Shown piece after piece: positions 27,760-29,683 of a stretch of DNA of 43,180 nt. The notes beneath the pieces were generated by a model. It saw nothing but the letters and a program-made list of their open reading frames with translations. It made no database searches and was not told the origin of the DNA. Position numbers and translations under genes: made by a program. How positions within the stretch are numbered: position 1 is the first letter of the stretch; the number at the start of each line of letters is the position of its first letter. The stretch comes from Bacteroidetes bacterium HGW-Bacteroidetes-21 (GTDB taxonomy: Bacteria; Bacteroidota; Bacteroidia; Bacteroidales; GWA2-32-17), in contig PHDH01000006.1 of the NCBI GenBank assembly GCA_002840935.1, forward strand, positions 1 to 43,180, read 5' to 3'.

Positions 27760-27846
27760 GAATTTTTTGATTAAATCATAACGGTAATTATCGATCCCAG
27801 AGGGATCAAATATTTATAAAAAACAGTAAAACAATTCAACTGTCCT

Positions 27847-27890
27847 GTAGGTCGTATGTTTGCTAAATAAAATAAGTTTCAGATTTTTTT
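27847..27890 (+). repeat. Left 44-bp inverted repeat
   Basis: Perfect reverse complement of 29459-29502. It starts GTAGGTCGTATGTTTGC and ends TTTCAGATTTTTTT. Confidence 0.95.
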
Positions 27891-28009
27891 GAAGGGGCAT
27901 AATATTTATAAAAATATAAATACAATATTGCATTGTCCCATAGGGACAAAACTTTCTGGACTGTTCTGTCCCTTCTATGTTGCTTTCCAAATTTATTTTC
28001 AGATTTTTT

Positions 28010-28017
28010 TACCTTTG
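28010..28017 (+). promoter_or_regulatory. Bacteroidota -7 promoter box for the small RNA
   Basis: TACCTTTG matches TAnnTTTG and follows a run of Ts. It predicts transcription starting about 28022-28024, exactly where the first RNA stem begins. No clear -33 TTTG. Confidence 0.55.
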
Positions 28018-28021
28018 TAAA

Positions 28022-28115
28022 GTATATCAGAAGAGGACGTGAGCTCTGCTGGAGAGCAACTCACCAGCAATATGATATATGGCTTTGAATGAAACTCCCG
28101 TGTTGGGAGTTTTTT
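28022..28115 (+). ncRNA. Candidate structured small RNA, about 95 nt, inside the IS110-type element
   Basis: A -7 box (28010-28017), a compact structure and an intrinsic terminator define a transcription unit without an ORF. The closing stem is GUAUAUCA (28022-28029) with UGAUAUAU (28073-28080), 8 pairs including one wobble. Inside is a 9-bp hairpin: GUGA (28039-28042) with UCAC (28061-28064), then GCUCU (28043-28047) with AGAGC (28053-28057), loop GCUGG, with an AAC bulge on the 3' side. The terminator follows. The unit converges on the transposase gene. It may be the element's guide RNA or a small RNA carried by it. I do not recognise a named RNA family. Confidence 0.5.
28092..28115 (+). 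terminator. Intrinsic terminator of the small RNA
   Basis: Perfect stem AAACTCCC (28092-28099) and GGGAGTTT (28105-28112) with loop GTGTT and Ts through 28115. The arms extend at DNA level through GAATGA (28087-28092) and TCATTC (28115-28120), and imperfectly further out to about 28075 and 28135. On the opposite strand the T-run is missing, so it works for the + strand. Confidence 0.75.
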
Positions 28116-28323
28116 CATTCATTGCCTATATGGCTAAAAAACTCATCTGCTATTATTTTTTAAGAACGTAAACCATAAAAACAACCTTCTATAAACAGAC
28201 TCATATTGAGCTGCAATGTCACTTTTAATTTTTACAGTAAGAGAGCTGAATCCTACAGGAAACGGACTTTAGTCAAGACTAAAGCCGCAAGGGCCAGTAT
28301 CAGACTCACTTAGACGATTGTAT
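28116..28323. other. Non-coding part between small RNA and transposase stop
   Basis: No ORF. The only clear structure is a perfect short hairpin CTTTAGTC-AA-GACTAAAG at about 28267-28284 with GC-rich surroundings, which could serve as the 3' end or part of a structured RNA on the transposase strand. Confidence 0.5.
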
Positions 28324-29412
28324 TTATGGTTTTGTATGTTGCAAGTTTTTAGTATAGTCATATTTACAATTGTTTTTAAGTACAAAGTTAATTCTGGAAA
28401 CAAGTTTTTTTGCAATTCTTATAATAGCCTCATTTGGTTTCATTCGTCTGCAATACTTGCTGTAGCATAGAGATAAGGATGGATCTACCCTGGCTGCAAT
28501 CCAAGCACTTTCAATAAGAGTACTTCTTAAAAAGGAATGTCCTCTTGAAGTTAAATTGCCGGTTCCATCTTTATCGCCTGAAGATTTTGTAGAAGGTACA
28601 AGACCAACAAATCCACACAATTGATCAGTATTGCTAAATCTTTGAATATTTTCGAATTCAGTTAACAATATCATTGCCGTTATAATGCCTATACCAGAAA
28701 TACTGCGAAGTAGTTCTACAGAGGTCTTGTATGAAGGTGTTTTAGATAATGTCTGAACTTGTTTGGTTACTTTTAACAGTGTTTCTCTTAATTTAAGTGC
28801 GGCTTCCAGCATGTTGTCCAAAGTCATTTTACCTGTTTGCTCTTTCATTTCTATATTCTGTAGCCAAATAATAAATTTATTTGACCAGTGCGAGTTTTTA
28901 AACGTATCGGGCACATGAATTCCATGAAAGTGTAAAAATGATTTTATTCGATTTTTGCATCGGGTTAAATCCTTTACAAGTATGCTTCTGTATCTAACCA
29001 AAGAGCGATCCTCTATAGATTTTAAGCTTGGCACGTAGATCGGGGTTAATTCTTGTGCTCGTAAAGATCTTGCCAATTTAATACTATCTCGTTTATCCGT
29101 TTTTTGATCTCGTTCTTTACCAGTAGTTGGTATATCTGCGGGGTTTACTACAATAGAATTAAGACCCAGTTCTATTAGTCGATTATGTATCCAGTACCCA
29201 CAAAATCCTGCTTCATATACAGAATGATAAGTGCAATCTGGAAAATTCTTTGCCAAATAGGCATGAAGAATATCAGGACTAGGTGGCTGTGAAAAGGTCT
29301 TATGAGTAATGCTTTCCGTCATAATTGTCACTTTCCAATCATTTTTATGGACATCAAAACCGACATAAATGTTTTGACCTGTTAAATTAATTTTGTTACT
29401 TTGTATTCTCAT
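28324..29412 (-). CDS. IS110-family transposase (DEDD/serine recombinase)
   Basis: 362 aa. The N-terminal RuvC-like DEDD domain shows NIYVGFDVHKNDWKVTIM (first Asp), HSVYEAGFCGYWIH (Glu), and ERDQKTDKRDSIKLARSL (the two later Asps). The C-terminal Tnp_20 domain has LLRSISGIGIITAMILLTE and CGFVGLVPSTKSSGDKDG, where the serine before G matches the catalytic serine position of the family, followed by LTSRGHSFLRSTLIESAWIA. The reading frame is intact, so the element may be active. IS110 enzymes are directed by a structured RNA from the element's own non-coding end. The start codon is buried in a large inverted repeat (29411-29477). Confidence 0.95.
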   Translation of the reverse strand: MRIQSNKINLTGQNIYVGFDVHKNDWKVTIMTESITHKTFSQPPSPDILHAYLAKNFPDCTYHSVYEAGFCGYWIHNRLIELGLNSIVVNPADIPTTGKERDQKTDKRDSIKLARSLRAQELTPIYVPSLKSIEDRSLVRYRSILVKDLTRCKNRIKSFLHFHGIHVPDTFKNSHWSNKFIIWLQNIEMKEQTGKMTLDNMLEAALKLRETLLKVTKQVQTLSKTPSYKTSVELLRSISGIGIITAMILLTEFENIQRFSNTDQLCGFVGLVPSTKSSGDKDGTGNLTSRGHSFLRSTLIESAWIAARVDPSLSLCYSKYCRRMKPNEAIIRIAKKLVSRINFVLKNNCKYDYTKNLQHTKP

Positions 29413-29477
29413 AAGTTTCAGATTTTAATTTGTTTATGGCTGCGAACTATAAACTTACAAAAAAATCTGAAACTTAT
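29411..29477 (-). promoter_or_regulatory. Large inverted repeat overlapping the transposase start codon
   Basis: ATAAGTTTCAGATTTT (29411-29426) and AAAATCTGAAACTTAT (29462-29477) pair perfectly over 16 bp with a 35-nt loop. In a transcript entering from outside the element the hairpin would cover the ATG. This is the kind of protection against read-through expression known from other IS families. Confidence 0.6.
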
Positions 29478-29502
29478 TTTATTTAGCAAACATACGACCT
29501 AC
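29459..29502 (-). repeat. Right 44-bp inverted repeat
   Basis: Perfect reverse complement of 27847-27890. Its inner part also forms the outer arm of the hairpin at 29411-29477. Confidence 0.95.
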
Positions 29503-29683
29503 GGGGCAATTTAAAAAAATCAAACATTGCTGAAAATCAGCTCACCCTTCAGGGAGGAGCAAAGATGATTTTCAGCAAATCTCGATTTTTGAGACAACCT
29601 CAATTCAAAAAATTCAAAACTTTTTTGAGAAAAAACAAACTCAATAAATATTTGTATTTTCGTAAAATTATAAATTTCAACGA

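Follow-up and report, generated by a model that had tools for sequence, protein, structure and literature searches.

What is the structured RNA that appears to be encoded near the right end of an IS110-type insertion sequence (IS) in the genome of Bacteroidetes bacterium HGW-Bacteroidetes-21, and does it serve the transposase of that element? The DNA analysed here (the window) is the whole of a 43,180-nucleotide stretch, positions 1 to 43,180 of contig PHDH01000006.1 (assembly GCA_002840935.1). A sequence-only reading of the window had proposed an unnamed structured small RNA of about 95 nucleotides (nt) on the + strand, headed by a promoter box and closed by an intrinsic terminator, and had hinted that this was the RNA that IS110 recombinases need. 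The RNA feature is confirmed as real rather than a product of chance, but it is predicted to be longer than proposed, and the same RNA is found in elements with unrelated transposases, which suggests that these elements share an RNA part in their movement or control. On present evidence it appears to represent a new, undescribed family of large, pseudoknotted, element-borne non-coding RNAs.

The RNA gene in the window is preceded by a -7 promoter box of the Bacteroidota type, TACCTTTG (28010-28017, + strand), exactly where the sequence-only reading had placed it. An exact TAnnTTTG is found 5' of the RNA in 50 of 129 homologues (4.7 expected from shuffles), with the boxes clustering 32-35 nt ahead of the core, and by these counts the box is a genuine feature of the family. 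The gene itself (28022-28146, + strand, ~125 nt) matches our covariance model R1 with 81.6 bits; its 5' end is set from the -7 box and its 3' end from the point at which the conserved tail stops. Folding z-scores are -4.2 for 28018-28115 and -6.1 for 28019-28150, with none of 200 shuffles as good; the feature is not due to chance, as had been argued. An open reading frame (ORF) check of the window gave no plausible ORF across the region, also as claimed, and a tRNA/tmRNA search found neither overlapping the RNA, which is single-copy in its own genome. Sequence analysis thus points to a + strand RNA gene of ~125-165 nt with its own Bacteroidota promoter.

The core of the RNA (28022-28080) is closed by stem P1 (28022-28029 with 28073-28080; eight pairs, one of them G-U), all pairs of which covary, around a conserved internal loop (GAAGAGGA / CAGCAAUA). 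Within it, the proposed hairpin is present at 28039-28064 and comprises stem P2 (28039-28043 with 28060-28064), which is 97-99% paired with compensatory changes in four of its five pairs, and the invariant P3 hairpin with its GCUGG loop and three-nucleotide CAA bulge. Across 100 aligned sequences, compensatory changes in 11 pairs of P1 and P2 give 375 double-changed cells (133 in shuffles) and a covariation score of 0.589, compared with at most 0.153 for slid partners, whilst the P3 hairpin CUCUGCUGGRGAG is nearly invariant. The internal loop is also constrained: positions 28033-28034 co-vary with 28068-28069, and three matched types are seen (AGAGG/GCAAUA, AACGG/GGGAUA and AGCGG/GGAAUA). In a fixed register, G-U is about three times commoner than A-C on the + strand, indicating that this is the RNA strand. 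Around 25 nucleotides are invariant in the family, to which the window RNA belongs by its core (CTCTGCNGGNGAGCAAC..AGNNATA) and its covarying P1 and P2. A pairing of the GCUGG loop with CCAGC, seen in the minimum-energy fold, is not supported: the base in the loop varies on its own, with no change to match in its partner.

What had been read as the terminator proves to be only part of a larger structure. The AAACTCCC/GGGAGTTT stem at 28092-28112 is present and is followed by Ts, but it does not mark the predicted end of the RNA: it is the tip of a long hairpin, P4 (28081-28126, + strand; inverted repeat I9), which in most homologues extends below the U-run into a longer helix. The base of P4 pairs at -15.2 kcal/mol with its own partners and at -6.6 with those of other sequences, the best of 5000 permutations averaging -8.3, and is on these sequence comparisons covarying across the family. 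Of 63 homologues, 54 have a U-run behind the tip of P4 and just 38 have five Ts, and A- and U-tracts flank P4 on both sides. Beyond the U-run lies a conserved 3' tail (AUAUGGCUAAAAAACUCAU, 28128-28146, + strand; consensus after P4 AUGSCUNARAAAACYCA) that pairs back into the core, so that the length of ~95 nt fell short of the ~125 nt now predicted. The conserved ATGCCTAAGAAAACTCAT tail was also considered as protein-coding and rejected, as in-frame stops and frameshifts are tolerated.

Two pseudoknots on the + strand, both with covariation, link tail and core. PK1 joins GCU (28133-28135) to AGC (28066-28068): the AGN before AUA and the N'CU of the tail form standard pairs in 62 of 63 cases, with C-G, G-C, A-U and U-A all represented. 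PK2 joins UC (28143-28144) to GA (28052-28053) of the P3 loop, where R of the loop and Y of the tail are Watson-Crick in 69 of 71 cases (A-U, G-C and C-G), against a mean of 34 and a maximum of 50 in a permutation control. The mutual information between the tail Y and its PK2 partner column is 1.1 bits (0.2 for the next best column), and both A-U and G-C occur within each of the IS110, IS256-variant and IS3-like elements. The window fits both pseudoknots (C28068-G28133 in PK1 and A28053-U28143 in PK2). The predicted fold, well supported by sequence comparison, is therefore a closed P1-P2-P3 domain and a long hairpin, P4, with an A-rich tail docked on the core by PK1 and PK2; in our reading, the A-rich linker would run along the P2-P3 helix and close an H-type pseudoknot.

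How widely is this RNA distributed? A DNA search of 60 related genomes gave clear homologues, one of them with 80% identity across its promoter, core and tip hairpin. The core pattern CTCTGCNGGNGAGCAACNNNNNAGNNATA, for which ~0.5 chance matches are expected (an estimate from the count of fixed bases), was then sought in 84,980 species genomes and turned up in at least 118 stretches of DNA, almost all of them from Bacteroidota; among the matches listed are stray labels from Cloacimonadota, Planctomycetota, Sumerlaeota, Acidobacteriota and others. For the class, the R1 model, built from 100 sequences, detects the RNA in 61 of the 395 genomes sampled and in 44 of 197 genera. Many genomes have multiple copies, which often lie at the ends of contigs; repeated mobile DNA would be expected to behave in this way. 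Searches of Rfam 15 with three family members, at gathering and relaxed thresholds, returned chance matches only; blastn against plasmid and phage collections gave no match, and viral contigs just three. The checks that the sequence-only reading had proposed, by covariance model, by compensatory stem changes (found in P1 and P2) and against Rfam, support its central claim: a conserved, structured RNA that has no name yet, is encoded on the + strand behind a promoter of its own and belongs to an IS110-type element. Searches of open-licence papers, with hardly any preprints among them, by sequence string and by topic found no description of such an RNA.

The RNA is a component of mobile elements, but not of one kind of element. 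Upstream of the RNA core there are fixed points beyond which the flanks of different copies no longer agree, which places the RNA inside the elements. The 73 nearest opposite-strand ORFs include 30 IS256 Zn-variant transposases, 13 of IS110, about a dozen of IS3, IS481 and IS21 and one of ISAzo13. A recognised transposase lies beside 72 of 128 distinct RNAs, convergent with the RNA in 66 cases and co-directional in six, and the RNA never lies on the 5' side of the transposase; many of the other RNAs are cut off by contig ends. In IS256 Zn-variant, IS110, IS3/IS481 and IS21 elements, and likewise in the window, the RNA sits between the 3' end of the transposase gene and the end of the element. 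Its tail overlaps the last transposase codons in IS256-variant elements and it stops ~180-230 nt short of the transposase gene in IS110 elements. Among IS256 Zn-variant elements in 390 genomes that retain the C-terminus, 15 of 16 carry the RNA (counted from match coordinates), compared with only 2 of 30 fetched IS110 loci. None of 30 DDE_Tnp_1 (IS4/IS5) loci from RNA-carrying genomes has the RNA at its 3' end; the one strong match near such a locus (L222) lies 5' of it, at the edge of a contig. The copy-out/paste-in families listed in PMC9333248 include IS3, IS21, IS256 and IS110.

Three groups of elements deserve separate mention. In one genome (G033), seven near-identical short elements (L011, L023-L028) keep the RNA with a C-terminal remnant of the transposase or none, and are MITE-like (miniature inverted-repeat transposable element-like) derivatives that retain the RNA. 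In Chryseobacterium and Epilithonimonas (L054, L061, L141), the RNA follows the transposase gene on the same strand and the element ends ~36 nt past the tail. The right end of one IS256-variant element (L071, 1402-1460) has two copies of TAATGGACAAAATTGATGC ahead of the RNA promoter, which are possible double transposase-binding sites.

What might such an RNA do? We tentatively favour, at rather less than even confidence, the view that this RNA, encoded by the element and acting in trans, regulates circle-type transposition or serves it as a cofactor, by way of a host factor. It would be made as a stable free RNA whose action in trans does not depend on the transposase sequence; a conserved host factor would be bound by the invariant P3 hairpin and the tail, and the RNA would thereby control or assist the circle-forming copy-out/paste-in step common to the host families. 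It probably belonged originally to the IS256 Zn-variant lineage, from which others acquired it. Several points weigh against this proposal: expression of the RNA is itself a step inferred from sequence, both the host factor and any effect on transposition are purely inferred, the correlation with circle formation is based on four families and one control family, the IS256 Zn-variant origin is suggested by frequency only, and conserved structure alone is also compatible with a ribozyme or an aptamer. Most IS110 elements, moreover, are without the RNA, which at 2 of 30 loci is not essential for that family. The broader proposition that this is a plug-in RNA module, common to unrelated DDE and DEDD insertion sequences and controlling or assisting circle-type transposition via a common host factor, is more doubtful still; if true, it would be the first known non-coding RNA component of IS256, IS3 and IS21 elements.

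One elaborately folded RNA across four unrelated transposase families would point to a host process or cofactor exploited alike by many elements, in a bacterial phylum that ranks among the most common in the gut and in water, and the RNA would give direct access to whatever limits copy-out/paste-in transposition. The covariance model is ready for use, the pseudoknot pairs are suited to mutation-and-rescue, and cultured hosts exist, among them Sunxiuqinia elliptica CGMCC 1.9156 and Chryseobacterium aurantiacum F30. To our knowledge, known IS non-coding RNAs are each tied to one transposase family (bridge RNA to IS110, omega RNA to IS605 and RNA-OUT to IS10), and the nearest precedents, bridge RNA and Asr9/Ssr9 of ISPpu9, are likewise element-specific. 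The omega RNA (reRNA) of IS200/IS605 TnpB also comes from the right end of an IS and has pseudoknots, but is encoded on the same strand as tnpB and takes its guide from beyond the element, whereas the new RNA occurs without TnpB and mostly on the strand opposite to the transposase. Ssr9 and Asr9 are small RNAs encoded within one IS, up- and downstream of the ISPpu9 transposase, whose expression they have been shown to affect; they act by pairing with each other and are described for ISPpu9 only, rather than forming a conserved pseudoknotted family across IS families (PMC8450116). The MRSC-65-2 mobile/repeat motif is a multi-copy structured motif near transposases, but with a conserved UYCCGG repeat and a spread across diverse phyla (PMC11109978), and is unlike the new RNA in sequence.

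Other functions can be envisaged. An unlikely one is that of a riboswitch-like sensor, in which the core binds a small molecule and transcription either stops at P4 or continues antisense into the convergent transposase gene. The U-runs that most homologues (54 of 63) have beyond the tip of P4 and the convergent orientation of 66 of the 72 RNAs would fit such a switch, as would the compact H-type pseudoknot with an A-rich strand, as in preQ1-I aptamers; there too an A-rich strand runs to a loop-loop pairing, a likeness in working only, as the new RNA is much larger, has no Rfam match and does not lie upstream of genes. The tail that completes the fold, however, lies past the putative terminator, five Ts are found in only 38 of 63 homologues, and the six co-directional elements leave no gene to control.

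That the RNA cleaves itself, or is catalytic in some other way, and so processes transcripts of the element is distinctly improbable. Two pseudoknots, the ~25 invariant nucleotides and the association with mobile elements speak for it, but the RNA matches no ribozyme family in Rfam, its topology is unlike the hepatitis delta virus (HDV) fold and no conserved cleavage context is evident. We give equally little credence to the idea that it is the DNA whose structure matters, with the RNA a by-product: a strand folding at the end of the element, or a terminator that works both ways and insulates the transposase. The RNA is always near an element end, and the A- and U-tracts on both sides of P4 could stop transcription both ways; tolerance of G-U but not of A-C, together with the conserved promoter, nevertheless points to RNA, and a terminator function leaves the pseudoknots unexplained.

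Very improbable is an antisense regulator, similar to RNA-OUT, that pairs with the mRNA of its own transposase. The RNA is element-encoded and mostly convergent, and its tail does overlap the final transposase codons in IS256-variant elements. Set against this, its conserved parts are common to unrelated transposases, in IS110 elements it ends well before the transposase gene, and in 27 elements its pairing with the region where the transposase gene starts was not enriched; because both orientations occur as well, simple antisense action is unlikely, and the co-directional copies make it less likely that antisense or read-through control is the general role.

The hint that the + strand RNA is the bridge RNA (seekRNA) guiding the IS110 recombinase is virtually discounted: it does lie in the long non-coding right end where IS1111-type elements hold their guide RNA (PMC11187229), and resembles bridge RNA as a structured non-coding RNA from such an end, but it is on the + strand with the transposase on the -, it is not confined to DEDD (IS110) recombinases but occurs with the DDE transposases of IS256, IS3/IS481 and IS21 elements, it has no flank-matching guide and is identical in the seven G033 copies with differing flanks, and a separate bridge candidate is present on the transposase strand of the same element.

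That element, within which the RNA lies as proposed although its family is not specific to IS110, extends approximately from 27972 to 29494. Its right end, CTTCTATGTTG at 27972, is the point at which the flanks of related copies diverge exactly, and its left end, near 29494, was placed by comparison of left ends. It encodes a 362 amino acid IS110 transposase (28324-29412, - strand; Pfam DEDD_Tnp_IS110 and Transposase_20), single-copy in this genome. On the transposase strand of this element and of 12 relatives, the stretch of 180-230 nt that separates the transposase stop from the RNA forms two conserved stem-loops, with a consensus energy of -25 (~0 for shuffled columns). Within one of them is a segment identical to the host sequence that borders the right end of its own element on the outside: the longest guide match averages 8.3 nt with the element's own flank and 5.3 nt with the regions of other elements, a difference reached in none of 10,000 permutations. 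Since its guide tracks its own host flank, as agrees with published bridge RNA and seekRNA behaviour (PMC11187229, PMC11208160), we assign the bridge-RNA role to this - strand candidate (28147-28320), with a possible target guide at 28285-28303 and a donor-loop segment at 28182-28195. The match is clear in 9 of 11 related elements; by the strict measure it fails in two, of which the window is one, its segment CTGGCCCTT differing from the flank CTGTCCCTT by one mismatch in a match that is visual only. With guides equal to flanks, IS110 targets could be predicted.

Just outside the right end of the element, 27835-27891 repeats the IS110 left end (29458-29514) in inverted orientation over 57 nt (93%), apparently the remnant of a second IS110 insertion. 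Around the insertion (27780-27965) are short palindromic host repeats (CCCAGAGGGATC, GTCCCATAGGGAC), and the IS110 element may target repeats of this type.
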